Below are positions 3,696 through 35,922 of a stretch of DNA of 45,077 bases, piece after piece; position 1 is the first letter of the stretch, and each line of letters begins with the position of its first letter. The DNA lies in NCBI GenBank assembly GCA_026645775.1, contig JAPKMS010000061.1, positions 1 to 45,077 on the forward strand. Direction: 5' to 3'. The position numbers were made by a program, and so were the translations under genes. The stretch comes from Anaerolineae bacterium. Its GTDB lineage: Bacteria; Chloroflexota; Anaerolineae; CG2-30-64-16. A model generated the notes under the pieces. That model saw only the letters and a list, made by a program, of their open reading frames with translations, was not told the DNA's origin and did not search any database.

Positions 3696-5147
3696 TTATC
3701 GCAGCGCCAGCGTGCTCACCGCCTGGATGATGCTTTGCATCCACGGGAACTGCCAGATGCCCAGCAGCAGGGTCGCCAGGGCCGCGATGGCGATCGTCGC
3801 CATGACGGGCCAGCCCGGTTTCGGCGCTTCGGCTGCATCCGCGGCCGGCTCAGACATGAACATCGCAACCGTCACGCGCAGATAGTAGTATGCGCCGATG
3901 GCGCTGTTGATCACGCCGACGATCGCCAGCCAGGCCAGCCCGGCCTCCACCGCACCGCTGAAGACGTACAGCTTCGCGAAGAAGCCGGCGAGCGGCGGGA
4001 TGCCAGCCAGCGAGAACATGAAGAGCGCCATCAACACGGCGAGCACCGGTTGACGGGCCGCCAGCCCGTGCAGCCGCTCGACCGAGACGTCGTTTTCTTC
4101 TCGGCGCTGCACAGCCAACAGCACGGCGAACGCGCCCAGGTTCATAAAGGTGTATGCCAGCAGGTAGTAGAGCGCGCCCTCGGCGCCCCGCGGGTTGCCC
4201 GCGGCCAGACCGGTCACGATGTAGCCGGCGTGTGCGATGCTGGAATAGGCCAGCATGCGTTTGAGGCTGGTCTGGCGCAGGGCTGCCAGGTTGCCCAGCG
4301 TCATGGTCAGCACCGCGAGGCCCGCCAAGGCCAGCAGCCAGGGCCGGTCATGGCTGCCCAGCGCGGCCAGCACCCGGATCAGCGCGGCGAAGGACGCCGT
4401 TTTGGTGCCCACTGACATGAACGCGGTCACCGGCGTCGGCGCGCCCTGGTAGACGTCGGGCGTCCACATGTGGAACGGCACCAGCGCTACCTTGAAGCCA
4501 AGCCCAACGAGCAGCAGGCCCACGCCCAGCGGCAGCAGGGGTGCGAACGGCAGTGAGACAGACAGCGGCGCAATGCCCTGGGCAATCGCCGCGAGGTTGG
4601 TCGTGCCGGTCGCGCCGTAGATCAACGCGATGCCATAGAGCAGGAAGCCGCTGGCGAACGCGCCCAGCAGGAAATACTTCAGCGCCGCCTCACTCGACCG
4701 GGCATCCCGTCGGTTGAAGCCGGAGAGGACGTAAAGCGCCAACGAGAGGATTTCGATTGCGACGAAGATCGTCATGAAGTCGCTGGCGATCGTCAACGCG
4801 GTCATGCCGGCTGTCGCCAGCAGGATCAGCGCGTAGTACGCGCCGGCGTGCCGGGTGAAGTCCGCTACGCGCTCTACCGATAGCAGCAGCGCCAGGGCAG
4901 CCGCTATCAATACCGCCGCGGTGGTAAACAGCCCCAGGCCATCGGCCAGCGCCATGTTCTGGAACGCGGGCGAGGCCGGGCGGTAGGTGAAGACCGTCGC
5001 CAAGGCGCCCAAGGCCGCGACCAGGCTGATCCACCCCAGGATGCGCTTTTGCACGATCACAAGGTCGGCGATCAGGATGACCAACGCGGCCACCACCAGA
5101 ACGATCTGGGGCGAGATAACGGGAAGGTTGAGAGTTGGGAAAGTCAT
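3696..5147 (-). CDS. nuoN: NADH-quinone oxidoreductase subunit N (operon 1)
   Basis: NuoN is one of the three antiporter-like proton-pumping subunits of the complex I membrane arm. The 483-residue protein is hydrophobic throughout, about 14 membrane segments. It shows family words LALYVLSGFNRRDARSSEAALKYF cut here to LSGFNRRDARSSEAALKYF, FHMWTPDVYQGAPTPVTAFM, LKRMLAYSSIAHAGY and LAGIPPLAGFFAKLYVF. It is the last gene of the minus-strand nuo operon. A 108-base gap with an inverted repeat separates it from nuoM, and it ends at the bidirectional terminator 3644-3678. A second NuoN of 497 residues is encoded at 27101-28594. Confidence 0.95.
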   Translation of the reverse strand: MTFPTLNLPVISPQIVLVVAALVILIADLVIVQKRILGWISLVAALGALATVFTYRPASPAFQNMALADGLGLFTTAAVLIAAALALLLSVERVADFTRHAGAYYALILLATAGMTALTIASDFMTIFVAIEILSLALYVLSGFNRRDARSSEAALKYFLLGAFASGFLLYGIALIYGATGTTNLAAIAQGIAPLSVSLPFAPLLPLGVGLLLVGLGFKVALVPFHMWTPDVYQGAPTPVTAFMSVGTKTASFAALIRVLAALGSHDRPWLLALAGLAVLTMTLGNLAALRQTSLKRMLAYSSIAHAGYIVTGLAAGNPRGAEGALYYLLAYTFMNLGAFAVLLAVQRREENDVSVERLHGLAARQPVLAVLMALFMFSLAGIPPLAGFFAKLYVFSGAVEAGLAWLAIVGVINSAIGAYYYLRVTVAMFMSEPAADAAEAPKPGWPVMATIAIAALATLLLGIWQFPWMQSIIQAVSTLALR

Positions 5148-5177
5148 ATGCGTTTTGCTCTCATGGGTGTGACGAGC

Positions 5178-5254
5178 GATTGGGGACCAGAGACTCGGGA
5201 TTAGGGACTAGGAATGAGGGCTATCGGTTCCTGCCCCCTGGTCCCTGATCCCCG
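5178..5254. repeat. Imperfect inverted repeat in the nuoM-nuoN gap
   Basis: The left part repeats a GGGGACCAG / GGGATTAGGGACTAGG word set; the right part carries its complement, CCCCCTGGTCCCTGATCCCC. The clearest arms are GGACCAG (5184-5190) and CTGGTCC (5238-5244). It belongs to the word-repeat class found in most gaps of this window. Confidence 0.6.
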
Positions 5255-5255
5255 G

Positions 5256-6755
5256 TCACTTATCCACCACGATACTCACTGCCGGATTTTGCCGATTCAG
5301 CGCGTCTACCACCGCTTGCGCGGATGGGTTGATCTTGTCGAAGAACAGATTCGGGAACAGGCCGATGACGAAGAACAGGATCACCAGCGGCGCCAGGGTC
5401 AGTACCTCGCGCACCTTGAGATCCGGGATTGCGGCATTTTCGGGCTTGGTCAGCGGTCCGTGCAGCATCTCGCGCACGGCGCGGAGCAGGTACCAGGCGG
5501 CCAGGATGATGCCGAAGGTGCCGAAGACGGCGAACACCTTGTTGGCCTGGAAAGCCGCCAGCAGGATGTTGAACTCGCCCACGAAGCCGTTCAGCCCCGG
5601 CAGCCCTGCCGACGACATCGCCACGATCAGGAATAGGAATCCGTAGATCGGTATCTGCTTCCAAAGGCCGCCGAAATCGGCCAGGAGCCGGGTGTGCCGC
5701 CGGTTGTAGAGCATGCCGACCATCAAGAACAAGGCGCCCGTACTCAGGCCGTGGTTGATCATCTGCAAGGTCGCACCGGCGATCCCCTGTGCGCTCAGGG
5801 CGAAGACGCCCAGCATCACGAAGCCCAGGTGGGCCACCGACGAATACGCGACCAACGACTTGAGATCCTTCTGAGCCAACGCCACCAGCGCGCCATAGAT
5901 GATGCCGATCAGCGCGAGCGTCGCGATCCACGGCACCAGCGTCTTGCTGGCCTGCGGGAAGAGCGGCAGGCAGAAACGCACGAAGCCATAGGTGCCCATC
6001 TTCAGCAGTACGCCGGCCAGGATCACCGAGCCGCCGGTGGGCGCCTCGACGTGGGCATCGGGCAGCCAGGTGTGGAACGGGAAGAGCGGCACCTTGATGG
6101 CGAATGCCAGGCCGAACGCCAGGAAGAGCCACAACTGCAGATTGGGCGCCAGGTTCAGCTTTTGCAGCGCCAGCAGGTCAAACGTGCCGCCCTGGAAGTA
6201 AAGTACGATGATGCCGACCAGCATCAGCGCGGAGCCGGTCAGGGTGTAAAGGAAGAACTTGAGCGCCGCGTAGATCCGCCGCGGGCCGCCCCAGACGCCG
6301 ATCAAGAAATACATCGGGATCAGCGTCAGCTCCCAGAACACGTAGAACAGCACCAGATCCAGCGCCAGGAAGACGCCGATCATGCCGCCTTCGAGCAACA
6401 GCATGAGGAACAGGTAAGATTTCAGCCGTTTCTCAATGCCTTCCCAGGAGAAGAGCAGCACCAGCACGGTCAGCAGAGTGGTGAGCAGCACCAGCAACAG
6501 GCTGAGCCCGTCGACGCCCAGGAAATACTGGATCTTGAACTGCGGCACCCAGTCGAAGCGTTCAACGAACTGCATGCCCGCCTCGCCGGCCCGCCACCAG
6601 ACCCACAGCAGGCAGGAGATGGCGAACGTCACCAGGCTGACCAGCAGTGCCCACCATTTCTGGAGCTTAGCGCCCGGCAGGAGCAGCAGCACCAGGGCCC
6701 CGGCGATGGGAAGGAAGGTGATGATTGAAAGTAATGGAATGTTTAGCGGATTCAT
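5256..6755 (-). CDS. nuoM: NADH-quinone oxidoreductase subunit M (operon 1)
   Basis: NuoM is an antiporter-like subunit of the complex I membrane arm. The 499-residue, 13-14-helix protein has VDGLSLLLVLLTTLL, FYVFWELTLIPMYFLIG, PLFPFHTWLPDAHVEAPT, LKSLVAYSSVAHLGFV and LPGLNGFVGEF, all standard for the family. In most nuo operons nuoM directly follows nuoL, but here 1.27 kb of small toxin-antitoxin-like genes intervene. No clear Shine-Dalgarno is seen before its ATG. It may be read through from nuoL or from an unrecognised promoter inside the cassette. Confidence 0.95.
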   Translation of the reverse strand: MNPLNIPLLSIITFLPIAGALVLLLLPGAKLQKWWALLVSLVTFAISCLLWVWWRAGEAGMQFVERFDWVPQFKIQYFLGVDGLSLLLVLLTTLLTVLVLLFSWEGIEKRLKSYLFLMLLLEGGMIGVFLALDLVLFYVFWELTLIPMYFLIGVWGGPRRIYAALKFFLYTLTGSALMLVGIIVLYFQGGTFDLLALQKLNLAPNLQLWLFLAFGLAFAIKVPLFPFHTWLPDAHVEAPTGGSVILAGVLLKMGTYGFVRFCLPLFPQASKTLVPWIATLALIGIIYGALVALAQKDLKSLVAYSSVAHLGFVMLGVFALSAQGIAGATLQMINHGLSTGALFLMVGMLYNRRHTRLLADFGGLWKQIPIYGFLFLIVAMSSAGLPGLNGFVGEFNILLAAFQANKVFAVFGTFGIILAAWYLLRAVREMLHGPLTKPENAAIPDLKVREVLTLAPLVILFFVIGLFPNLFFDKINPSAQAVVDALNRQNPAVSIVVDK

Positions 6756-6837
6756 GAAAGATTACCGATCCTACAAGCTGATTGCGAAAGCTCGCCCTAA
6801 CGCTGTGATGAGCTAAGCATCTTTCCGAATAGATAAC

Positions 6838-7113
6838 TCACCGCGAAGATGGCAAGGCTACCTGGCGCTTCAGAACTGCACTGGTAACGCCCTCAACTGT
6901 CACCAATTCCCATCCGTCTCGCCCCAAGAGTGCCAGTCACCTACCAAGAACGAGGCGCCAATTTTCGTTTGTGACCTTCGGGCGCGGATCAAGAGAGATC
7001 TCTTCAGCTCTATGGTTTCCATCAGCCGAGTAGTAATAGACTCTCAGGCCGAGCTGACTACTAGTCAGCCCGACGGAAGTCACCACGGCCCTACAGTATT
7101 CCCAGGTCTCCAT
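6838..7113 (-). pseudogene. DUF4177-like small gene interrupted by an in-frame UGA
   Basis: Starting at 7113, behind a strong GGAGGGGG ribosome site, 58 codons open with METWEYCRAVV and run to a UGA at 6937-6939. The same frame then continues for 32 more codons to a second UGA at 6838-6840, encoding LALLGRDGWELVTVEG and AVLKRQ. An N-terminal WEY and a C-terminal GxxGWELV...LKR are the hallmarks of DUF4177-like proteins, so the two halves look like one 91-codon gene with a nonsense mutation (or a read-through site). The function of the family is unknown. It is the last gene of the cassette between nuoL and nuoM. Too short to stand out in an ordinary ORF scan. Confidence 0.6.
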
Positions 7114-7191
7114 TTTGACCCCCTCCGGCCCGGTCGTCCCACGCTCTCACATGGCCTCGCGGGCCATATCTAGGCGTAAACGAGCACCGGC

Positions 7192-7320
7192 TCAGACGTG
7201 CTCTTCCACGTGAGTCTGATCCCAGTAGTCGGCCAGGCTATGCGTGTCCCAGAACTCGCCGATTTGCCTGACTGAATGCGCTCGCGAAATGCTGGTTTCG
7301 TCTGCGGTTTTGCTTCTCAT
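7192..7320 (-). pseudogene. 42-residue stub resembling the N-terminus of CopG-type antitoxins
   Basis: The start ATG (7320-7318) overlaps the DUF2283 stop as ATGA (7317-7320). The short product contains RQIGEFWDTHSLADYWDQT, the characteristic N-terminal motif of the CopG-type antitoxins of type II modules, but stops after 42 residues. The usual DNA-binding strand and helices are missing, and the following codons are not convincing. It is therefore either a decayed antitoxin or an expressed peptide that keeps only the toxin-facing segment. The tight overlap suggests it is, or recently was, translated. Confidence 0.5.
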
Positions 7321-7682
7321 GCTGTGACAGGCTCAGGATGGAGCCAAGTAATCGGAATCGTCTCCGCGGCTGAAGGCGTGTAAGCCGACAACGACAGAAC
7401 ATCGCTCACCGGCGGGCGTTGGATGACCTCTAACACGAGTTGACGCAGCTCCTTGGAAAGTTGAGCCAGGCCGCTCATGGGAAAACTACGCATCCCCCAT
7501 TCAGTTCGTTGCGCCAGAAGGGAATACTCAAAAAACGTCAATCCTACCGCACGCCGTTCAGCTTTGTTGATGCGCAGCAGAATGTGGTCATTCAACTCAA
7601 TGCCCGTCGCCTTTTCACCAGGAGCAAACGACACGTAGAGCGTGTCGCTCATCTCATCGTAGTTGGTAACTGATCTGTCCAT
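7317..7682 (-). CDS. DUF2283-domain protein, putative antitoxin
   Basis: The 121-residue protein begins with MDRSVTNYDEMSDTLYVSF, then GIELNDHILLRINKAERRAVGLTFFEYS, the DUF2283 pattern (Y.....D.LYI...........E.......D..G...G.......). The C-terminal half is a variable extension. DUF2283 proteins are often encoded beside DUF4258/BECR-type nucleases, as here, and are suspected antitoxins, but the role is unproved. The start at 7682 lies 4 bases after the upstream stop, with GTGAGAG upstream, so the two are coupled. The 3' end overlaps the CopG-like stub. The cassette is visibly more AT-rich than the flanking nuo genes. Confidence 0.7.
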   Translation of the reverse strand: MDRSVTNYDEMSDTLYVSFAPGEKATGIELNDHILLRINKAERRAVGLTFFEYSLLAQRTEWGMRSFPMSGLAQLSKELRQLVLEVIQRPPVSDVLSLSAYTPSAAETIPITWLHPEPVTA

Positions 7683-7686
7683 ACTC

Positions 7687-8016
7687 TCACCCGATCTCTT
7701 TTTGATACGCTGTTGTGATGTAGTTATTAGCAACTGGTCGCCACGATTGGTCCTCACTGAACCCAAACAGCACGATTGCGACGATATGAGTATTATCTTC
7801 TGCTAAACTATCGCACGGCTTGACATATCGGTATTTGCGCGGGTTAAGTGGATCCTGCCTGCGCTCCCCTGTTTGAACAGTATCCTTCAATTGTTCTTCA
7901 AAGTCCGCCATTTCAGGATGATTGATCGGCTCGATTATGTGATCCCACCGCTCTTGAGTGAGATAGATCTCATTCCCATAGCGGTCATGGACTGTCCAGC
8001 GTCGTCCGCCAACCAT
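7687..8016 (-). CDS. BECR-like (PBECR/DUF4258-type) nuclease, putative toxin
   Basis: The 109-residue protein contains WTVHDRYGNEIYLTQERWDH, an early HII, a central QDPLNPRKYRYVK segment and a final NNYITTAYQ. This layout, with histidine in ERWxHI and a terminal TAY, resembles the barnase-EndoU-colicinE5/D-RelE (BECR) nuclease superfamily, several of which are RNases in toxin-antitoxin modules. The start at 8016 has GGGAGGGAAGGC just upstream and follows the nuoL stop by 11 bases; a longer frame would overlap nuoL and is rejected. The DUF2283 gene is 4 bases downstream. Family placement is from pattern recognition; catalytic activity is inferred. Confidence 0.6.
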   Translation of the reverse strand: MVGGRRWTVHDRYGNEIYLTQERWDHIIEPINHPEMADFEEQLKDTVQTGERRQDPLNPRKYRYVKPCDSLAEDNTHIVAIVLFGFSEDQSWRPVANNYITTAYQKEIG

Positions 8017-8027
8017 GCCTTCCCTCC

Positions 8028-9950
8028 CTATCTTACCACCAGCCACGCCAACAACGCCACTGCACCGAACAGGATCGAGAGCGCGTACAACCCCACCAGG
8101 CCGGTTTGCAGCTTGCGGGCCTGCGCCCCGACCCAGCCGGTGACCGAGGCGACGCCATTCACGGCGCCATCGATGCCGCGCTGATCCACCGTGCGGGCGA
8201 ACCAGCCCGCGATGTCCTTCAGCGGCTGGACGATGATAGCGGTGTACGCCTCGTCCACATAGTACTTGTTCTCGACCAACCGGGCGAACCAACCCAGGGA
8301 TTCACGTACGCGCTTGGGCCAGTCGGTGTTGACCACGTAAGCGCGGTACGCCAGGTACGCGCCGCCCAGCGCCACCAGCGCCGACACGCCCAACAAGACC
8401 CACTCGATCGGGCTGTGCGCGGCCGTGGCCGCAGCCTCCGCTGACCCCGCGACCGCCGCCGCCGTTTCGCTCCCGTGGAAGACCGGCTCCAGCCAATGCT
8501 CGATCAGCGACAGCCGCGGCAGGCCGATGTAGCCCGCCAGCGCCGCGCCGATCGCCAGGATCACCAGCGGCACTGTCATCGCCTTGGGTGATTCGTGCGC
8601 GTGATGGTGCAGCTTTTTATCACGTTCCTGGCCCCAGAACGGCACGAACACCGCCCGGAACGAATAGATCGCGGTCAGCGCTGCCGTGGTCAGGCCGATC
8701 AGCCACAGCACCGGCGATTTTTGCCAGGCGTACCACAGGATTTCATCCTTGCTGAAGAAGCCGGAGAGCAAGGGAATGCCCGCCAGCGCGGCCGCGCCGA
8801 CCAGGAAGGTCCAGTAAGTGGTCGGCATCTTGGCCCGCAGGTTGCCCATCTTGCGGATGTCGAGCTCGCCGTGCAGACCGTGCATTACGCTGCCGGCGGC
8901 CAGGAACAACAGCGCCTTGAAGAACGCGTGGGTGGCCAGGTGGAAGATGCCCGACGCGTAGGCGCCGACGCCGACCGCCAGGAACATGTAGCCGAGCTGC
9001 GAGATGGTGGAGTAGGCCAGGATGCGCTTCAGGTCGACCTGTGTCAGCGCGATGGAGGCGGCGTAGAGCGCCGTGACCGCACCGATGACCGCGACCCACA
9101 TCGCGCTGGTGGGCGCCAGGCCGAAGAGCACGGCCGAGCGGGCGGTCATGTACACGCCCGCGGTCACCATGGTCGCGGCATGGATCAGCGCCGAGACCGG
9201 GGTGGGGCCTTCCATCGCATCGGGAAGCCAGACGTAGAGTGGGAGCTGCGCACTCTTGCCGGTCGCGGCCAGCAGCAGCAGCATGGTCACGATCTTGACG
9301 GTCGCGTTGCCGGCCCCCCAGACCTCAGGCGCCCGGGAGAAAACCTGGGTGAATTGGAGCGAGCCAAGCCCGGTCCAGATGAACATGATGGCCAGGGCCA
9401 GCCCGAAGTCGCCGATGCGATTGACCAGGAAGGCCTTTTTGCCCGCGTCCGCGGCCGATGGTTTTTCAAACCAGAACCCGATGAGCAAATACGATGCCAG
9501 GCCGACGCCTTCCCAGCCCACGTAGAGCAGGAGGTAGTTGTTCGCCAACACCAACGTCAACATCATCAGGATGAAGAAGTTCAGGAAGGCGAAGAAGCGC
9601 GGGAAACGGGCGTCATCGTGCATGTAGCCGACGGAGTAGACGTGGATCAGGAAGCCGACGCCGGTGACCACCAACGCCATGGTGATCGAAAGCTGGTCGA
9701 TCAGCAGCGCGACGTCCACCTTGAAGCTGCCGGTGGCCATCCACTGCCACAGCGTCACCTCATGGCTGCGCTCCTCAGCGGGCAGGCCCAGCAGCGTGAC
9801 GAATAGCCAGACCGCCACGCCGAAGCTCAGCGCGACCATGGCTGGCGCCAAAACGCCCACCACGCGTTTGCCCAAGCGCGTGCCGAACAGCGCAATAATC
9901 AACGTCCCCAACGCGGGGAATGCAAGCATCAACCAGGCGTATTCAAACAT
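8028..9950 (-). CDS. nuoL: NADH-quinone oxidoreductase subunit L (operon 1)
   Basis: NuoL is the distal antiporter-like subunit with the long lateral helix. The 640-residue protein shows HVYSVGYMHDDARFPRFFAF, ASYLLIGFWFEKPSA, SAQLPLYVWLPDAMEGPTPV, SALIHAATMVTAGVYMTAR, LKRILAYSTISQLGYMFLA and THAFFKALLFLAAGSVMHG, all family landmarks. The loop after SVMHG is short (LHGELDIRKMG), unlike NuoL2, where a repeat-derived His-rich segment is inserted. The C-terminus has NKYYVDEAYT and a final helix. The BECR-type cassette begins 11 bases after its stop. Confidence 0.95.
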   Translation of the reverse strand: MFEYAWLMLAFPALGTLIIALFGTRLGKRVVGVLAPAMVALSFGVAVWLFVTLLGLPAEERSHEVTLWQWMATGSFKVDVALLIDQLSITMALVVTGVGFLIHVYSVGYMHDDARFPRFFAFLNFFILMMLTLVLANNYLLLYVGWEGVGLASYLLIGFWFEKPSAADAGKKAFLVNRIGDFGLALAIMFIWTGLGSLQFTQVFSRAPEVWGAGNATVKIVTMLLLLAATGKSAQLPLYVWLPDAMEGPTPVSALIHAATMVTAGVYMTARSAVLFGLAPTSAMWVAVIGAVTALYAASIALTQVDLKRILAYSTISQLGYMFLAVGVGAYASGIFHLATHAFFKALLFLAAGSVMHGLHGELDIRKMGNLRAKMPTTYWTFLVGAAALAGIPLLSGFFSKDEILWYAWQKSPVLWLIGLTTAALTAIYSFRAVFVPFWGQERDKKLHHHAHESPKAMTVPLVILAIGAALAGYIGLPRLSLIEHWLEPVFHGSETAAAVAGSAEAAATAAHSPIEWVLLGVSALVALGGAYLAYRAYVVNTDWPKRVRESLGWFARLVENKYYVDEAYTAIIVQPLKDIAGWFARTVDQRGIDGAVNGVASVTGWVGAQARKLQTGLVGLYALSILFGAVALLAWLVVR

Positions 9951-9965
9951 GGGAACTCCACGTTG

Positions 9966-10050
9966 GCAGATTGGGGACCGGTAGATTGGGGATTGGTTTA
10001 CTAACTTACCGATTTACCAACTGACCCAACTCACCAGGGTTACCCGTTCC
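9966..10050. repeat. Inverted word repeat in the nuoK-nuoL gap
   Basis: GATTGGGGACCGGTAGATTG and GGGATTGGTTTAC are followed by complementary TTACCGATTTACCAACTGAC. It is of the GGTAGATTGG type, also seen at 12650, 24355 and 35787. Confidence 0.6.
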
Positions 10051-10054
10051 CGCT

Positions 10055-10357
10055 CTACCCCTTCAATAGATTCACATCCTCGATATTCGTCGTATCTCGG
10101 TGCCGCACGACGGTCATGACAATTGCCAGGCCCACCGCGACCTCGGCCGCGGCGACAACCATCGCCATCAGCATGAAGACCTGGCCGTTCAGGCTCAGGA
10201 AGTGCTTCGACAGCGCCGCGAAAGTCAGGTTAACCGCATTGAGCATCATCTCCACCGACATGAAGATGATCAGCACGTTGCGCCGCACCAGCACGCCGAT
10301 GACGCCGAGGGCGAACAGGATGGCGCTCAAGATCAGATAATATGTAGTAGGAACCAT
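10055..10357 (-). CDS. nuoK: NADH-quinone oxidoreductase subunit K (operon 1)
   Basis: NuoK is a three-helix membrane-arm subunit. The 100-residue protein has the family order YYLILSAILFALGVIGVLVR, FMSVEMMLNAVNLTF with the conserved glutamate in helix 2, and AAAEVAVGLAIVM with the glutamate in helix 3. The start at 10357 is chosen because GAGGGGTCATC precedes it and MVPTTYYL is a normal NuoK start. The longer frame would translate the repeat at 10373-10460. It lies between nuoJ and nuoL. Confidence 0.95.
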   Translation of the reverse strand: MVPTTYYLILSAILFALGVIGVLVRRNVLIIFMSVEMMLNAVNLTFAALSKHFLSLNGQVFMLMAMVVAAAEVAVGLAIVMTVVRHRDTTNIEDVNLLKG

Positions 10358-12649: not shown

Positions 12650-12690
12650 CGGTAGATTGGTAGGTTGGTCGCTTGGTGGGCTACACCAAC
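12650..12690. repeat. Short word repeat in the nuoG-nuoH gap
   Basis: GGTAGATTGGTAGGTTGGTC followed by CTTGGTGGGCTACACCAAC. It is of the GGTAGATTGG type and overlaps the last codons of nuoG. Confidence 0.5.
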
Positions 12691-22715: not shown

Positions 22716-23024
22716 ATGGTTCCACTCTGGTATTATTTGGTCCTTGCTGCAGCGCTTTTCTGCATTGGCGCGTTCGGCGCACTGGCTCGAAAGAATGCCG
22801 TCGGCGTGCTGATGGGCGTCGAGTTGATGTTGAATGCTGTCAATATCAACCTGGTGGCCTTCTGGCGTTACACGACCGCGGCCCAATTGACCGGTCAATT
22901 GTTTGCGGTCTTCGTCATCACCGTTGCTGCTGCCGAAGCTGCTGTGGGGTTGGCGTTGTTTATTGCCATCTACCGGCAGCGTAACACGGTGAACGTGGAA
23001 GAGTTTGACACGATGAAGGGATAG
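22716..23024 (+). CDS. nuoK: NADH-quinone oxidoreductase subunit K (operon 2)
   Basis: The 102-residue three-helix protein has [20 protein letters not shown] with the helix-2 glutamate and [17 protein letters not shown] with the helix-3 glutamate, both needed for proton transfer in characterised enzymes. The start at 22716 is preferred because AGGAG lies upstream and [10 protein letters not shown] aligns with NuoK1; the longer frame adds an unrelated 24 residues. Confidence 0.94.
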
Positions 23025-23025
23025 G

Positions 23026-23080
23026 AATCAACGAATCAGCGAATCATCAGCAATCCTTGATTCGTCATTCGCTGATCCGC
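23026..23080. repeat. Inverted word repeat in the nuoK2-nuoL2 gap
   Basis: AATCAACGAATCAGCGAATC and ATCAGCAATCC are followed by complementary TTGATTCGTCATTCGCTGAT. The word set is unique to this gap. Confidence 0.7.
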
Positions 23081-23096
23081 TCATCTGGGGGCTTTC

Positions 23097-25397
23097 ATGA
23101 CCGAATCTGTGTCTTCATTTCCTGTGATTTTTAATCTTACCCCTATCCTGCCGTTGCTGCCGTTTGCGGCGTTCGTGCTCATTGTGCTGTGGGCGAACCG
23201 CAGCAAGAAGCTGAGCGCGGGGCTGGCCATCGGCGGCATCGGGCTGGCGTGGATCCTGGGCTGGGCCATTGCCATCACCACCTTCAGCGTCGAGCATTTC
23301 GGCGAGCACCCCTTCCGCGTGTTCCGCGATTGGTTGCCCACGGGGCGGACGTGGCAGGCGTTTGGCTTTGCGCTGGATCCGTTGGCCGGCGCAATGCTGA
23401 TCATGGTGCCGTTCGTCTGTTTCCTGATCTTCGTCTACGCCGTGGGGTATATGGGCGTGGGCAAGCCTGAGAGTGCAAACGACGAACGGGGCAAGCCGGC
23501 CGAGCCGGGGCACGTCGATCGGCTGGCCAGCCGCTTCTTTGCCTACATCGCACTCTTTGCCACGGGCATGATCGGCCTGATCCTGGCTGATAACCTGATC
23601 ATGCTGCTGGTCTTCTGGGAGATCATGGGCCTCTGCTCCTATCTGCTGATCGGTTTTTGGTTTGCGCGCAGCTACGATGACCCCAAGCAGATCACCCCGA
23701 AAGAGGCGGGGCTCAAGGCGTTTCTCACGACCCGCATCGGCGACACGCTGATGCTAGCAGGCATGCTGCTGCTCTACGCGCGCACTAATTCGTTGAGCTT
23801 TGCCGACATCTTCAAGCCCGAGATGTTGGAACAGCTTGCGACGACCACCGTGAATCTGCCCGGCGTGGGTGCAACGCCGTGGGCGACCCTCATCGCCATC
23901 CTGATCTTCTTCGGCGCCATCGGTAAGAGCGCCCAGTTCCCGCTGCACGTCTGGCTGCCCGACGCGATGGAAGGCCCCACGCCCGTTTCGGCGCTGATCC
24001 ACGCCGCCACCATGGTCTCTGCCGGCGTGTACCTGGTGATCCGCACCTACCCGCTGATGGCCGCGGTGGAGCACGGACCGGCGTTGCAGTTCATCGCCTT
24101 CACCGGCGCCTTCACGGCGCTCTTTGCGGCCACCATCGCGCTGGCGCAGAATGACATCAAGAAGGTGCTGGCCTACTCGACGATTTCCCAGCTCGGCTAT
24201 ATGTTTGCCGCGTTGGGCATCGGCGCCTACGTGGCGGCCACCTTCCACCTGCTCACCCATGCCTTCTTCAAGGCGCTGTTGTTCCTCGGCTCCGGCAGCG
24301 TGATTCATGGGATGGAGCACGGGCATCATCATGGACACCAGGGGCATGGGGAAGCTGGTAAACTGGTAGATTGGGAAACCGGTGGGCACGGCCACCAATC
24401 TACCGATCACCCATCTACCAACTTACCGTCTTTCGATCCCCAAGACATGCGCAACATGGGCGGGCTGTTCCGCAAGATGCCGCGTACGGCCTGGACGTTT
24501 ATTATCGGCGGGCTGGCGCTGAGCGGATTCCCGATTGTCACCGCCGGTTTCTGGAGCAAGGATGAGATCCTGGCAGACGCCTGGGCGCACAACCAGCTTG
24601 TCTTCGTGGTGCTGGCCGTTGCGGCGCTGCTCACCGCGTTCTACACCGCGCGGCAGATCGTGATGACCTTCTTCGGCCAGCCCCGCACCGCGGCCGCCGA
24701 ACACGCCAGCGAGCACGACAGTATCTTCCAGTGGATGACGATCCCGCTGATGGCGCTGGCGGTCTTCGCAGTGGCGGGCGGCTGGGTCGGCATCCCGAAG
24801 GAATTCCCCGGGCTGGGCGCCCTTTCGGCCAACCCGTTCCACCACTACATCGGCAGCCTGGCCGAGGCGCTGCACATCGAGGCCGCTGAGCTGCCGTTCA
24901 ATGCGGTGCCGCTGCTCACGTCGTTGGGGGTGGCGCTGGGCGGGCTGACGCTGGGCTGGCTGGTCTACCGGGGCGCTGGCAAGCTGCGGGCCGGACACCA
25001 TCTGGCGTCGCCGCCGGAATACGTCGATCCGTTGGCGCGGCCGCTCGGTCCGTTGTACCCGGTGCTACAGAACAAGTATTACTTCGACGAGCTCTACCAC
25101 AAGGTCTTCATCAAGGGCACGCAGCGGTTGTCCACCTGGCTGTTCAAATTCGATTCGAACATCATCGACGACACCCTCGTGGACGGCGTTGGCAAGGCAG
25201 GGCGCTGGCTGTCGGAAGTCGGTCGTTGGTTTGATACGCATATCGTCGACGGCGCGGTTAACGGCATCGGCGCGGTGACCGGCTGGTTCGGCAGCGTGAT
25301 GCGCGAATTCCAGACCGGCAAGGCGCAGAATTACCTGCTGGTAGGGCTGGTCACGGTGTCGGTGCTGTTGGGCGCGTTCTTGCTGTTGCCGAAATAG
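23097..25397 (+). CDS. nuoL: NADH-quinone oxidoreductase subunit L (operon 2), with His-rich insertion
   Basis: This NuoL has 766 residues, 126 more than NuoL1. Family landmarks are intact: LVFWEIMGLCSYLLIGFWFA, FPLHVWLPDAMEGPTPVSAL, IHAATMVSAGVYLVIR, IKKVLAYSTISQLGYMFAAL and THAFFKALLFLGSGSVIHGM. Between SVIHGM and QDMRNMGGL, residues about 402-443, is a segment rich in His and Gly (EHGHHHGHQGHGEAG) followed by LVDWETGGHGHQSTDHPS. Part of its DNA (24355-24425) is an inverted word repeat of the intergenic type. A charged loop (GKPESANDERGKPAEPGHVD) also lengthens residues 120-145. The reading frame is maintained throughout. Confidence 0.95.
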   Translation: MTESVSSFPVIFNLTPILPLLPFAAFVLIVLWANRSKKLSAGLAIGGIGLAWILGWAIAITTFSVEHFGEHPFRVFRDWLPTGRTWQAFGFALDPLAGAMLIMVPFVCFLIFVYAVGYMGVGKPESANDERGKPAEPGHVDRLASRFFAYIALFATGMIGLILADNLIMLLVFWEIMGLCSYLLIGFWFARSYDDPKQITPKEAGLKAFLTTRIGDTLMLAGMLLLYARTNSLSFADIFKPEMLEQLATTTVNLPGVGATPWATLIAILIFFGAIGKSAQFPLHVWLPDAMEGPTPVSALIHAATMVSAGVYLVIRTYPLMAAVEHGPALQFIAFTGAFTALFAATIALAQNDIKKVLAYSTISQLGYMFAALGIGAYVAATFHLLTHAFFKALLFLGSGSVIHGMEHGHHHGHQGHGEAGKLVDWETGGHGHQSTDHPSTNLPSFDPQDMRNMGGLFRKMPRTAWTFIIGGLALSGFPIVTAGFWSKDEILADAWAHNQLVFVVLAVAALLTAFYTARQIVMTFFGQPRTAAAEHASEHDSIFQWMTIPLMALAVFAVAGGWVGIPKEFPGLGALSANPFHHYIGSLAEALHIEAAELPFNAVPLLTSLGVALGGLTLGWLVYRGAGKLRAGHHLASPPEYVDPLARPLGPLYPVLQNKYYFDELYHKVFIKGTQRLSTWLFKFDSNIIDDTLVDGVGKAGRWLSEVGRWFDTHIVDGAVNGIGAVTGWFGSVMREFQTGKAQNYLLVGLVTVSVLLGAFLLLPK
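24355..24425. repeat. Intergenic-type inverted repeat inside nuoL2
   Basis: CTGGTAAACTGGTAGATTGG and GAAACCGGTGGG are followed by CCACCAATCTACCGATCACC and CATCTACCAACTTACC. Both halves use the GGTAGATTGG words of the repeats at 9966, 12650 and 35787, but here they are read as protein in frame. Confidence 0.75.
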
Positions 25398-25429
25398 TGT
25401 TATCCGATTATCTCGGAGGTTTTCTTATC

Positions 25430-27010
25430 ATGACGAACTCACTCCTGACCATCATCACCTTCGTCCCCCTGGTCGGCGCGTTGCTGACCTTGCTGCCGTG
25501 GGGCAAGTGGCTGAAGCTGGACAAGGCCGGCGAAGAGCGCCTGATCAAGAACGGCGCGATTGCGATCAGCCTTCTGCCGCTGGGGCTGGCCCTCATGCTG
25601 TGGTCCGGCTACGACCAGGCTCTCGGCGGCTTCCAGTTCGAGATCAACGTGCCGTGGGTCAAGGCGATCAACGTCAACTACCATATGGGTGTGGATGGGT
25701 TGAGCCTACCGCTGATCTTCCTGACCACCTTCCTGACGGTGCTCGGGCTGTGGTATTCGGCGCGCGTGATCAAGACACGGGTAAGGGAGTTCTTCTTCCT
25801 GTTTCTGCTGCTCGAGATGGGCATGACAGGTGTTTTCGTGTCGCTGGACCTGGTGCTCTTTTACGTCTTCTGGGAGGTGGGCCTGGTGCCGATGTACTTC
25901 CTGATCGGCATCTGGGGCCAGGCGAAGGACCGGCCGCAGTACTCGGCGATCAAGTTCTTCCTCTACACCCTGGCCGGGTCGGTATTCATGCTGCTGGCTA
26001 TCGTGGCGATCTACTTCACCACGGGTACCTTTGACATCGTCGAAGCGGCCAAGCTAAAACCGTTCGCCGACAGCATTCTGCTTTCCGGGCTGGCATTCTG
26101 GGCGTTTTTCATCGCCTTTGCCATCAAGGTGCCGAGTTGGCCGTTCCATACCTGGTTGCCCGATGCCCACACCGCGGCGCCGACTGCCGGCTCGGTGCTC
26201 CTGGCCGGCGTCTTGCTGAAGCTGGGCGCCTACGGTATCCTTCGCATCGTCCTGCCGATCTTCCCGGAGGCGTTCAAGCGATATGCGTTGATCGTCGTCG
26301 CCCTGGGCGTGATCTCCATCGTCTACGGCGCGCTGGTGTCGCTGGCCCAGTGGGACTTGAAACGGCTGATCGCCTATTCGTCGGTAAGCCACATGGGCTA
26401 CGTGCTGCTGGGCGTTGGCGCGGCCGCCTACGCGATCGGTACGCCCAAGTGGGTGGATGCGAGCGCAATGGCGCTGAACGGCGCAGCGATGCAGATGTTC
26501 ACCCACGGCATCAGCACCGGCGCCTTGTTCTTCCTGGTCGGCGTGATCTACGAGCGGGCGCATCTGCGGGACCTCAAGATGTTCGGCGGGTTCAGCAGCA
26601 AGTTGCCGTACTACTACGGTCTCTTCGCCGTCACCGCCTTCACCTCGCTGGGCCTGCCTGGCCTGGCCGGCTTCTGGAGCGAGCTTTTCGTTTTCCGGGG
26701 CGCGTTTGACATCGTGCCGATCTGGGCGGTGATCGGCGTGTTGGGCATTGTGCTGACCGCAGCCTACATCCTGTGGAAGATCATCCAGTACACCTTCCTG
26801 GGCCAGTATGACGCGCACAAGATCGCACACTGGACCGATGTGGAGACCGGCGCTGAGCTGCACGAGCCCAAGGATCTGGCGTTTTTCGAGAAGGTGACGC
26901 TTTGGCCGTTGGTGGCGTTTATGATCTTTCTCGGCATCTATCCCGCACCGCTCCTGAACCTTTTCAACACAGTGTTCGTGCGGCTGATGAGCGGATTCGC
27001 CGGGAAGTGA
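25430..27010 (+). CDS. nuoM: NADH-quinone oxidoreductase subunit M (operon 2)
   Basis: This 526-residue NuoM has NYHMGVDGLSLPLIFLTTFL, LVLFYVFWEVGLVPMYFLIG, WPFHTWLPDAHTAAPTAGSV, LKRLIAYSSVSHMGYVLLG and LGLPGLAGFWSELFVF. It is 27 residues longer than NuoM1. The start at 25430 is chosen because TCGGAGGT lies upstream; a GTG at 25397 would overlap the nuoL2 stop and adds an unlikely N-terminus. Unlike operon 1, L and M are adjacent here, with a 32-base gap. Confidence 0.95.
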   Translation: MTNSLLTIITFVPLVGALLTLLPWGKWLKLDKAGEERLIKNGAIAISLLPLGLALMLWSGYDQALGGFQFEINVPWVKAINVNYHMGVDGLSLPLIFLTTFLTVLGLWYSARVIKTRVREFFFLFLLLEMGMTGVFVSLDLVLFYVFWEVGLVPMYFLIGIWGQAKDRPQYSAIKFFLYTLAGSVFMLLAIVAIYFTTGTFDIVEAAKLKPFADSILLSGLAFWAFFIAFAIKVPSWPFHTWLPDAHTAAPTAGSVLLAGVLLKLGAYGILRIVLPIFPEAFKRYALIVVALGVISIVYGALVSLAQWDLKRLIAYSSVSHMGYVLLGVGAAAYAIGTPKWVDASAMALNGAAMQMFTHGISTGALFFLVGVIYERAHLRDLKMFGGFSSKLPYYYGLFAVTAFTSLGLPGLAGFWSELFVFRGAFDIVPIWAVIGVLGIVLTAAYILWKIIQYTFLGQYDAHKIAHWTDVETGAELHEPKDLAFFEKVTLWPLVAFMIFLGIYPAPLLNLFNTVFVRLMSGFAGK

Positions 27011-27100
27011 GCGCATCGCAAGCAACCAGTAACCCGTCGGAGCAAAGGCTGATCTGCTTACGCCTTGCACCTGATGGGTTGTGGACCGGGAGGCAGTCCC

Positions 27101-28594
27101 TTGAAACTAGCTGATCTGACTTATCTCTTGCCAGAACTGATCTTGCTGCTGACCGCCGCGCTGATCTTCTTGCTGGACCTGATCTGGTTCAAGCGTCCAG
27201 CGGTGTCGGAGCGTCGGACGGAATGGCTGCCCTATGTGGCGCTGGCCGGGTTGGGCGGAGCAGCCCTGGGCCTGCTCCCCAGCCTGGGCAAGACCGCGTC
27301 GGTTGCCACCGTGTTGACCGCTGACCCGTACGGCGTTTTCTTCAAGGCGTTGGCGATCATGGGTGTGGCGCTGGTGGTTTTGCTCGCGGCGCCGTACCTG
27401 CGCGGCCGCACCCCCTATCGCGGTGAATTCTATGCGCTGCTGCTGATCGTGGCACTGGCTATCTGCCTGGCCGTGGGCGCCACCAACCTGGTGATGATCT
27501 ACCTGGCTATGGAGTTTCTCAGCATCACCAGCTATGTGCTGACCGGTTATCTGCGCAACGACCGCAAGTCGGGCGAGGCTGCACTGAAGTACTTCCTTTA
27601 CGGCGCGACCGCCTCCGCAGTGATGCTGTACGGCATGTCGCTGCTTTATGGCGCTACCGGCACGGTCGATCTGGCGGGGATTGCCGCCGCGTTCCAGGGC
27701 AAGGCGCAGGGCACGCTGGCCTGGCTGTCGATGCCTGCGATCATCCTGCTGATGGCCGGCTTCGGGTTTAAGGCCAGCCTGGTGCCCTTCCACCAATGGG
27801 CCCCTGACACCTACGAGGGCGCACCGACGCCCGTTACGGCGTTTCTGTCCACCGCATCCAAGGCGACCGGGTTCGCCATCCTGATGCGCGTCCTTCTGAC
27901 GAGCCTGGGGCAGGCCGATATTGCCCGGCAGTGGATCTCTCTGCTGGTGGCTATCTCGGTCCTCACCATGACGCTGGGCAACCTGACGGCTCTGCGCCAG
28001 ACCCATATCAAGCGGCTGCTGGCGTATTCCTCCATCGCCCAGGCCGGCTATATCCTGATCGGCGTGGCGGCCGTGTTGGCCGGACCGGGCCGCACCTTCA
28101 CCGGCATCAATGGCGTGTTGATCTACCTGTTAGCCTACTTGTTCACCAATGTTGGCGCGTTTACGGTGGTGACGGCGGTGGAAACGGCCACGGGCAAGGT
28201 GGACATCCGGGACTACGCCGGTCTGGTGCAGCGCTCGCCCTGGCTGGCCGCGCTTCTGCTGGTCTTTCTGCTGTCGCTGGCCGGCATCCCGCCCACCGGT
28301 GGCTTTATCGGCAAATTCTTTGTCTTCGGCGCTGCGGTGCAGAACCAGATGTGGGTGTTGGTCGCGATCGCGGCCGTCAACAGTGTGATCGCGGCGTTTT
28401 ATTACTTGAACATTGTCCGCTACATATTCTTCACCCCGGCCGAGGAAGGCGCCGATCGGATTCCGGTCGCACTGCCCTTCCGGGTGGCGGTGGGGGTGAC
28501 TGCGGCGGTGACGATTCTGCTGGGCCTGGCGCCCAGCCCGTTGATCGCATGGGCCACCCAATCGGCGCAGGCGCTGCTGGTGGCGTTGCGGTAG
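27101..28594 (+). CDS. nuoN: NADH-quinone oxidoreductase subunit N (operon 2)
   Basis: This 497-residue NuoN has YLAMEFLSITSYVLTGYLRN, KSGEAALKYFLYGATASAVM, FHQWAPDTYEGAPTPVTAFL, IKRLLAYSSIAQAGYILIG and LAGIPPTGGFIGKFFVF. A TTG at 27101 is preferred as start: GGGAGGCAG lies 4 to 12 bases before it and MKLADLTYLLPELIL is a normal NuoN beginning. Upstream ATG and TTG codons add a glycine-rich piece unlike the family. It ends operon 2. Confidence 0.94.
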   Translation: MKLADLTYLLPELILLLTAALIFLLDLIWFKRPAVSERRTEWLPYVALAGLGGAALGLLPSLGKTASVATVLTADPYGVFFKALAIMGVALVVLLAAPYLRGRTPYRGEFYALLLIVALAICLAVGATNLVMIYLAMEFLSITSYVLTGYLRNDRKSGEAALKYFLYGATASAVMLYGMSLLYGATGTVDLAGIAAAFQGKAQGTLAWLSMPAIILLMAGFGFKASLVPFHQWAPDTYEGAPTPVTAFLSTASKATGFAILMRVLLTSLGQADIARQWISLLVAISVLTMTLGNLTALRQTHIKRLLAYSSIAQAGYILIGVAAVLAGPGRTFTGINGVLIYLLAYLFTNVGAFTVVTAVETATGKVDIRDYAGLVQRSPWLAALLLVFLLSLAGIPPTGGFIGKFFVFGAAVQNQMWVLVAIAAVNSVIAAFYYLNIVRYIFFTPAEEGADRIPVALPFRVAVGVTAAVTILLGLAPSPLIAWATQSAQALLVALR

Positions 28595-29176: not shown

Positions 29177-30818
29177 GTTGTTGGCTGCCCTCCCGGCTGT
29201 GCTCGCGGTCACGGGCGAGCCGGCAGGCGCCATCACCCACATCACAGCCGATTCGCGCCAGGTCACGCCTGGCGCGTTGTTTGTGGCCTACCGGGGCGTC
29301 GGCGCAGATAGCCAGCGCTTCATCCCCGACGCGATCGCCCGCGGCGCGGCCGCCGTGGTGGGCGAGCAGCCGATGGTCGGCCTGTCTGTGCCGGCCATCC
29401 AGGTGGCCGATGGCCGCGTCGCACTGGCGTGGCTGAGCGCGGCCTGGTGCGGCCACCCCAGCCGATCGATGGCGCTGGTGGGCATCACCGGCACCGATGG
29501 CAAAACCACCACAGCTAACCTGCTCTACAGCATCCTGCGGGCCGCCGGCCGCCGCGCCGGGCTGATCAGCACCGTGAGTGCCGTGATCGGCGACCGCACC
29601 TACGACACTGGGCTGCACACCACCACACCCGATGCGCCCGACGTCCAACGTTACCTGGCACAGATGCGCGACGCGGGCGTCGAGATCGCGGTGCTGGAGA
29701 CGACCTCGCATGGACTGGCGCAGCATCGCGTCACCGGCTGTGCGTTCGATGTCGCCGTGGTGACCAATATCACCCACGAACACCTGGATTTTCACGGCAG
29801 CTACGAGGCGTATCGCGACGCCAAGGCGCGGTTGTTCCGATCGCTGAGCGAACAGAAACCCGGTTTCTCGAAGAAACCGGGTTTCTCAGAACTGCCGAAG
29901 ACCGCGGTGCTGAACCGCGATGACAGTTCCTTCGAGTATCTGTCGGCCATCCCGGCTGAGCGTGTGATCACATACGGGATCGGGCAGGCCGGGGGTGCAG
30001 GGCAGGGAAACGGCGCGAGCATCCATCTCACCGCCGCAGCCATCCGCCATGCGGCCGGCGGGACAGAATTCGACCTCCACTTCACACCCGTACCCCCTCA
30101 CCGTGTCCCTGTGCCGCCTTGGCGCCTCGTCACGCCGCTGGTCGGTGACTTTAACGTCTCCAACATCCTTGCCGCAGCGGGCGCGGCGCTGGCATTGGAC
30201 ATCGAGCCGGAGGCGATCCGGGTAGGTGTGGCCGCGTTGGCCGGTGTCTCCGGTCGGATGGAGCGGATCGACCGCGGCCAGCCGTTCCTGGCGGTGGTGG
30301 ATTTCGCGCACACGCCCAACGCCCTGGCGCGTGCCCTGGACACCGTGCGCGGTTTGACCGAGCGGGATGGCCGGGTCATCGTTGTCTTCGGCTCGGCGGG
30401 CTTGCGGGATCGCGAAAAGCGCCGACTGATGGGCGAGGTGGCGGCGGCGCGGGCCGATTACACCCTCGTCACCGCCGAAGACCCGCGCACTGAAGATCTG
30501 GCTGCCATCATGGCCGAGACTGCGGGCGCGCTGCTCGCTGCAGGCCGGGTCGAAGGGCACGATTTCGTCTGCATCCCCGACCGGCAGCGGGCTATCCTCC
30601 ATGCCGTGCAGCATGCCCGGCCGGGCGATGTGGTGATCTGCTGTGGCAAGGGGCACGAGCAGTCCATGTGTTTCGGCGCAGTCGAGCATCCCTGGCGCGA
30701 CCAGGAGGCCCTGCGGTGGGCGCTGGATCGCCTGGCCGGCGTCACCGATGACGCGCCGCCTTTTGCCTTACCGACGTGGGACAACTTGCCGGTTATTCCC
30801 GAATTTGACCGGAGATAA
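29163..30818 (+). CDS. murE: MurE-like UDP-N-acetylmuramoyl-peptide ligase
   Basis: The 551-residue protein has the Mur-ligase order: N-terminal [19 protein letters not shown] loop [15 protein letters not shown] (residues 107-121), [47 protein letters not shown] with the carbamylated-lysine region, [13 protein letters not shown] and [20 protein letters not shown]. MurE adds the third amino acid to the cell-wall precursor. The DNPR motif of diaminopimelate-adding enzymes reads EDPR here (about 439-442), so the amino acid is uncertain. Residues about 231-243 ([13 protein letters not shown]) come from a palindromic repeat. Start at 29163, inside the preceding gene. The 3' end overlaps the convergent dehydrogenase gene by 26 bases. 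Confidence 0.85.
29854..29886. repeat. Palindromic AGAAACCCGGTTTCT pair inside murE
   Basis: AGAAACCCGGTTTCT (29854-29868) and its exact reverse complement AGAAACCGGGTTTCT (29872-29886) are separated by CGA. Each 15-mer is itself almost palindromic. The unit is read in frame as [11 protein letters not shown]. It resembles a dispersed palindrome that I recall from cyanobacterial and chloroflexal genomes, but I cannot verify that here. Confidence 0.85.
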
Positions 30819-35786: not shown

Positions 35787-35922
35787 TCCAGGCTGGTAAC
35801 TTGGTAGACTGGTAACTTGGTAACTTGGTAACTTGGTTTCCAGAACCCGATGTACCAATCTACCAACCTACCCATGTACCGATGTACCAATCTACCAACC
35901 TACCCATGTACCGATCTACCCC
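35787..35922. repeat. Tandem plus inverted GGTAACTTGG / ACCAATCTACC repeat array
   Basis: Four GGTAACTTGG-type units (about 35793-35837) are followed by two tandem copies of ATGTACCAATCTACCAACCT ACCC (split here) and a third partial copy. The halves are complementary. It is the longest example of the word-repeat class, and its right end runs into the end of the upstream gene at 35916. Confidence 0.8.

Follow-up and report, generated by a model that had tools for sequence, protein, structure and literature searches.

A palindromic word-array insert in a loop of the complex I subunit NuoL2 of an Anaerolineae bacterium and its candidate link to S23 genes

Introduction

Palindromic elements that are read in frame within protein genes are best known from Rickettsia, and dispersed heptamer arrays, which also occur in the RNase P RNA gene and in a tRNA-Leu intron, have been described in cyanobacteria as STRR sequences. 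The Rickettsia palindromic elements (RPEs) are short, belong to several families and are dispersed, many of them lying in frame in unrelated protein genes; a review in which Ogata et al. 2000 and 2002 are cited names no mover for the elements (PMC10969869). A different arrangement has been found in the intervening sequence (IVS) of the Coxiella 23S rRNA, in which an S23 ORF lies in the loop of a stem formed by terminal inverted repeats and is preceded by tandem heptamers; the S23 family has no known function (PMC4990558). In marine Beggiatoaceae, TAACTGA heptamers are dispersed and mostly intergenic, and some of them are located in ORFs in the stop-free orientation (PMC4679880). Moreover, the tandem repeats of Borgs are reported to evolve fast at the DNA level and to give rise to protein segments that are disordered (PMC9879509).

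Here, we describe an insert in the nuoL2 gene of an Anaerolineae bacterium (Chloroflexota). The window that was analysed is a stretch of 45,077 nucleotides of the contig JAPKMS010000061.1. The insert is probably a copy of a dispersed palindromic word array that is tolerated in a loop serving as a recurrent target, and S23-bearing elements are its putative source.

The nuoL2 gene and its insert

The nuoL2 ORF matches Proton_antipo_M, the domain of NuoL and ND5 (1.1e-76), and its product has the NuoL fold, the nearest solved chains being NdhF (6hum) and NuoL from P. denitrificans (8qby). Antiporter-like genes of the NuoL/M/N type form two distinct sets in the window (3696-9950 on the minus strand and 23097-28594 on the plus strand). 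Measured from the conserved HAFFKALLFL helix to the MGGL/MGNL motif, with NuoL1 from the same window as the reference, the NuoL2 loop is longer by 39 residues, about 26 of which come from repeat words (24349-24432). The original prediction had recognised the longer loop; its figure of about 42 extra residues has to be corrected to this count. The frame of nuoL2 is open across the insert, and both flanks are coding-like by codon scores in the same frame. The third-position GC content is 0.45 in the loop versus 0.86 in the remaining gene, as expected of non-coding DNA that is read as protein. The features are summarised in Table 1.

Table 1 Features of nuoL2 and its loop (positions in the window)
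Feature	Position	Strand	Remark
nuoL2, NuoL-type complex I subunit, 766 aa	23097..25397	+	gene in which the insert lies
His-rich part of the loop, EHGHHHGHQGHG, no repeat words	24315..24348	+	wordless His-rich loops in other Chloroflexota
Insert (palindromic word array), read in frame as about GEAGKLVDWETGGHGHQSTDHPSTNLPS	24349..24432	+	residues 418-442, internal segment with the lowest confidence in the model
5' arm, words GGTAAACT GGTAGATT GGGAAACC	24354..24379	+	
3' arm, complement words AATCTACC GATCACC CATCTACC AACTTACC	24395..24429	-	

An AlphaFold model of NuoL2 that was built with 31 sequences (mean pLDDT 82) predicts that the insert is disordered, its residues being the sole internal segment with a pLDDT below 50. 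In the model, 11 transmembrane helices precede the insert, and the loop is thus located between TM11 and TM12. If the N terminus lies on the periplasmic side, as in the E. coli NuoL, the loop is probably exposed to the cytoplasm.

The 5' arm of the insert is followed by a centre and then by the complement words (about 24354-24429), and the arms are 72-78% complementary. Words of the GGTAGATT type with at most one mismatch occur 14 times in the window versus 1.35 expected, a number reached in 0 of 100 shuffles. This class consists of 8-nt words that are dispersed through the genome, most copies lying outside genes; the double word with at most two mismatches has 274 genome-wide matches versus 8 for the reversed pattern. 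Together with the open frame and the coding-like flanks, the dispersed matches bear out the earlier claim that a repeat class of intergenic type is read in frame within nuoL2. When folded as RNA, the sequence from 24350 to 24432 forms one hairpin (-32.5 kcal/mol, z -3.8), and none of 200 shuffles folded equally well. A longer stretch folded as DNA gave a weaker signal (z -1.6). A comparison of the insert with known Rfam RNAs yielded just a chance match far under the cut-off.

Inspection of a perfect forward array of at least three words revealed TAG in every frame, whereas its complement contains no stop in any frame (NLPIYQST). In the nuoL2 copy, the short forward arm avoids the stop (GKLVDWETG) and the complement arm reads QSTDHPSTNLPS. 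The forward arm of a copy in a DnaE2 gene of the same genome is in the same phase as that of nuoL2 (GKLVDWETGK). This suggests a stop filter, by which only copies and phases without stops would persist in genes.

Other repeats are present in the window. A palindromic array of another class, with words of the CGAATCAG / CTGATTCG type, immediately precedes the nuoL2 start (23023-23085), and S23 genes with arms of this type exist in relatives (L222, L231). Further words and arrays of the GGTAGATT class are located at gene borders (9965-10057, 12651-12690 and 35795-35920); one array of this class overlaps predicted ORF starts near 35850, where the start calls may be wrong. A separate recurring intergenic palindrome, AGAAACCCGGTTTCT..AGAAACCGGGTTTCT, is found at 29854-29886 and also at L139, L145, L149 and L156.

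The same loop in family relatives

The genus of the source genome (G000) comprises a single genome and the family, with ten genomes, was therefore used for comparison. An inverted word array is present in frame and at the same position of the NuoL2 loop in seven of the ten genomes, and five word classes are involved: class A (GGTAGATT) in G000, class B (GGTATTG) in G003, class C (GCGGATT) in G002 and G007, class D (GGAGACAA) in G001 and G009, and class E (GGTGACAC) in G006. Each loop scored high for a single class, except for D/E cross-scores in G006, which are due to the similarity of the D and E words. No words were found in the loops of G004 and G008. In G005, nuoL2 (L026/L027, G005:C104) is split over two frames and most of TM11 beside the loop is missing; the gene appears to be broken or misassembled, and the remaining part of its loop has no words.

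Genome-wide counts revealed that the class of each loop is also dispersed in its own genome (7/7). In G004, G005 and G008, where words are rare or absent, none were detectable in the loop; classes A to D have zero genome-wide matches in these genomes and class E has 4 in G008. Permuting the loop classes among the genomes gave an equal fit in 16 of 5040 cases (P = 0.003), a value to be read with regard to the fact that the class patterns were chosen from the loops, that matches and not elements were counted and that a few matches are the loops themselves. The fit is weak for G006, in which the loop class is rare (7 matches), and for G002, in which it ranks fourth of the five classes. It had also been supposed that the loop is variable and tolerant. 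Indeed, the loops of the relatives differ in sequence, and the insert is a low-confidence segment of the model. A peptide shared by relatives and encoded by unrelated DNA, which the original prediction had named as evidence against itself, was not found; the relatives have unrelated peptides that are made from the words of their own genomes.

Further genes with in-frame copies

Word clusters were combined with coding scores in a census of 710 kb of genome sequence that was partly chosen for words; this approach replaced a de novo census of gapped inverted repeats, which was noisy. The census uncovered 46 clusters of at least three words, with seven entries listed including nuoL2, and, apart from the intergenic copies of the window, six distinct loci in the 710 kb scored as coding in frame on either flank. 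Two genes clearly bear the repeat in frame. The gamma-glutamyltransferase (gamma-GT) L176 has 36 extra residues between positions that are nearly adjacent in the structure 2nlz, and the DnaE2-type polymerase L177 contains two in-frame inserts of different classes. The second of these, near residue 600, consists of GGTTGAA words (peptide VEGSRLKVEGGATFNLEPSTFN), and its site is empty in the G007 ortholog; at the site of the first insert, the G007 ortholog has different word-like DNA. The PMT-type protein L153 and the methyltransferase-like protein L141 (no Pfam match) likely bear the repeat in frame as well. A further in-gene case, L165, was set aside. Its frame links an S23 gene, by way of the array, with the beginning of a gene for an amino acid kinase, so that the array is probably intergenic.

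S23 genes between word arrays

An in-gene candidate that adjoined an S23 gene (23S rRNA IVP, PF05635) beside a GGTAGATT array provided the lead to the S23 family. The genomes that bear words possess 4-14 S23 genes versus 0-2 in the three others, genome completeness being variable. For the detection of arms, the 350 bp before an S23 match were aligned with the complemented 350 bp that follow it. A score of at least 30 was reached by 37 of 43 S23 genes, by 21 of 3000 random places and, among 103 other genes of G000, by 1. The arms are mostly arrays of 6-8 nt words whose class varies between S23 genes. Outside the family, 15 of 28 S23 loci of Chloroflexota passed the same cut-off, and shifted controls from the same loci usually scored about 20. 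Moreover, the S23 arms match the class of the nuoL2 loop in six of the seven genomes (L211, L209, L225, L204, L208 and L199/L213). Twenty S23 loci that were compared with Rfam gave no match to rRNA or to any other family. The S23 loci (L189-L235 in the family, L236-L264 in the phylum) mostly have a word class of their own, and PF05635 matches occur in 48 of 151 Chloroflexota genomes. A transposase of the RAYT/Y1 type was also considered as the mobiliser and rejected; G003, the genome richest in words, has no match, and the few matches elsewhere do not track the word numbers.

It is quite possible, if somewhat less probable than its opposite, that the S23 genes are passengers, which tend to land in word arrays or to persist there and do not contribute to their spread. 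None of the S23 genes found in G007 has arms of class C, and the Coxiella S23 protein is probably not expressed (PMC4990558). However, inverted arms flank nearly every S23 gene, mostly with a class of their own, and the S23 counts are lowest in the three word-poor genomes.

Recurrent insertion or one ancestral event

A NuoL2 tree calculated without the loop pairs G002 with G003, G001 with G006 and G009 with G007 with strong support. The word class differs within every pair, which indicates that several class changes occurred. These changes could have affected one ancestral insertion, with the array being rewritten in place by slippage or by conversion from other arrays. This scenario, which we regard as unlikely, agrees with the identical position in all seven genomes and with the peptides beside FDPQDM, which are alike in G000, G009 and G001 (STDHPSTNLPSFDPQ, STDHLSTHLPAFDPQ) although the word classes differ; the resemblance suggests common descent of that arm. 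However, the congeners G002 and G003 have unrelated words with an equal 7-nt unit in both arms, for which a wholesale replacement would be needed, and the new sites in the gamma-GT and DnaE2 genes show that inserts arise anew.

The His-rich stretch

The His-rich peptide is located at about residues 407-418 of NuoL2. Measured between the same two motifs, the NuoL2 loops of other Chloroflexota comprise about 41 to 91 residues; many are His-rich and have no words. To judge from these sequences, the His stretch is most likely older than the repeat, contrary to the original prediction, which had assigned the His cluster to the repeat event. The composition of this stretch is loosely kept and the number and spacing of the His residues are not conserved, making a specific metal site unlikely; the His-rich loop may have a weak role. 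It is also improbable that the segment handles metal or protons under selection at the protein level, the repeat-like DNA being secondary. The frequency of His-rich loops in the phylum and the conservation of H404, E407 and H408 just before the loop would be in line with such a function. However, neither the sequence of the segment nor its His pattern is conserved, the words follow the repeats of the respective genome and the segment is predicted to be disordered. Tolerated turnover fits the insert better than the term "domesticated", if this is taken to mean that a function was gained.

The hairpins

All seven word loops fold as RNA into a single nested hairpin (z -1.8 to -4.7 versus dinucleotide shuffles), and the loops of G004 and G008, folded likewise, gave no special hairpin (z about 0). 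In comparison with synonymous recodings, the self-complementarity is significant in G001, G002, G003, G006 and G007, and it is not significant in G009 and in G000 (P = 0.16), where the arms of the nuoL2 copy are degenerate. The hairpin energy of the word loops was mostly not significant against such recodings because GC-rich recodings fold well too. Even less probable than selection on the His segment is that the hairpin is kept for an effect on the nuoL2 mRNA, such as a translation pause during the insertion of a membrane helix; the strong nested hairpins would suit this role, but the long loops of G004 and G008 do without a special fold and most copies of the repeat lie outside genes. An assembly error or contamination is very improbable, since the same place is occupied in frame by degenerate words of different classes in seven separate assemblies, even though most of the genomes are fragmented (160-750 contigs) and short-read assembly copes poorly with repeats.

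Proposed origin and meaning

We favour an origin of the nuoL2 insert from a dispersed element. Its two arms, which are inverted and made up of 7-8 nt words, fold into one hairpin and would move as a unit, and one copy would have landed in frame in the TM11-TM12 loop. This loop was already long and His-rich, and 26-odd extra disordered residues could therefore be tolerated, probably without a benefit of their own. As a recurrent target, the loop would repeatedly gain the element or have it overwritten by a class with dispersed copies in that genome. The S23 genes, which encode four-helix bundles and lie between arms of the same classes, may be the source or a mobility factor. Word-array elements with S23 would then be the parents, and hairpins without an ORF, such as that of nuoL2, would be MITE-like derivatives. 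The elements probably derive from elements of the S23/IVS type, with the mobility of S23 being inferred. We further propose, tentatively and with slightly more doubt than confidence, that a widespread mobile element of the Chloroflexota, of which no description was found, consists of an S23 gene between inverted arrays of a 7-8 nt word that is specific to each lineage of elements, that hairpins without an ORF are spread by the action of S23, also in frame into loops of proteins, and repeatedly replace one another in the same loop, and that the IVSs are a branch of this element.

In one loop of a core subunit of the respiratory chain, the turnover of repeat classes can be followed from genus to genus, which provides a natural series for studying how repeats turn into protein. 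Through the association of its genes with word arrays, the S23 family acquires a testable role, and the intervening sequences of rRNA are tied to dispersed palindromes. There is also a warning in these findings, since an unusual linker encoded by such a genome can be derived from an element. If the S23-element reading is true, a genome's own repeat class gets written into a subunit of complex I and the IVSs of the 23S rRNA are a specialised branch of the element.

Comparison with known systems

The cyanobacterial STRR sequences, which are dispersed heptamer arrays as well, are known from RNA genes and are not known from a protein loop. In contrast to the REP/RAYT system, the word copies do not follow a Y1 (RAYT-type) transposase. 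The Beggiatoaceae heptamers share with the present repeats that they are dispersed 7-nt words, some of which lie inside ORFs. However, they are mostly direct repeats upstream of start codons, with one indirect repeat, and S23 is unmentioned (PMC4679880). The Borg repeats differ in being direct tandem repeats and in residing on archaeal extrachromosomal elements (PMC9879509). With the 23S rRNA IVS, the putative parents have in common that an S23 (PF05635) ORF lies between inverted repeats, whereas the nuoL2 insert has no ORF and is located in a protein gene. Moreover, the Chloroflexota elements are dispersed outside rRNA, as judged from the 20 loci without an Rfam match, and their arms are word arrays of many classes.

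Palindromic word arrays of Chloroflexi or S23 genes with heptamer arrays were not reported in the literature searched, which for the most part did not include subscription journals. Within this literature, the build of the arms, the link to S23 and a single protein loop that bears each genome's own repeat class were not found and seem to be new. In contrast, the in-frame behaviour is already known from the RPEs (PMC10969869), as are dispersed heptamers that lie partly in ORFs from the Beggiatoaceae (PMC4679880). The arms described here are arrays of 7-8 nt words, whereas an RPE is one fixed sequence; one loop bears different classes depending on the genome, S23 genes lie between the arms and the host belongs to the Chloroflexota. 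Like the RPEs, however, the arrays are palindromic and form hairpins, both in nuoL2 and in the other word loops, and they are inserted in frame in several unrelated protein genes, to which they add a peptide. Thus, the best reading is that the nuoL2 insert behaves like an RPE, the likeness being one of behaviour.
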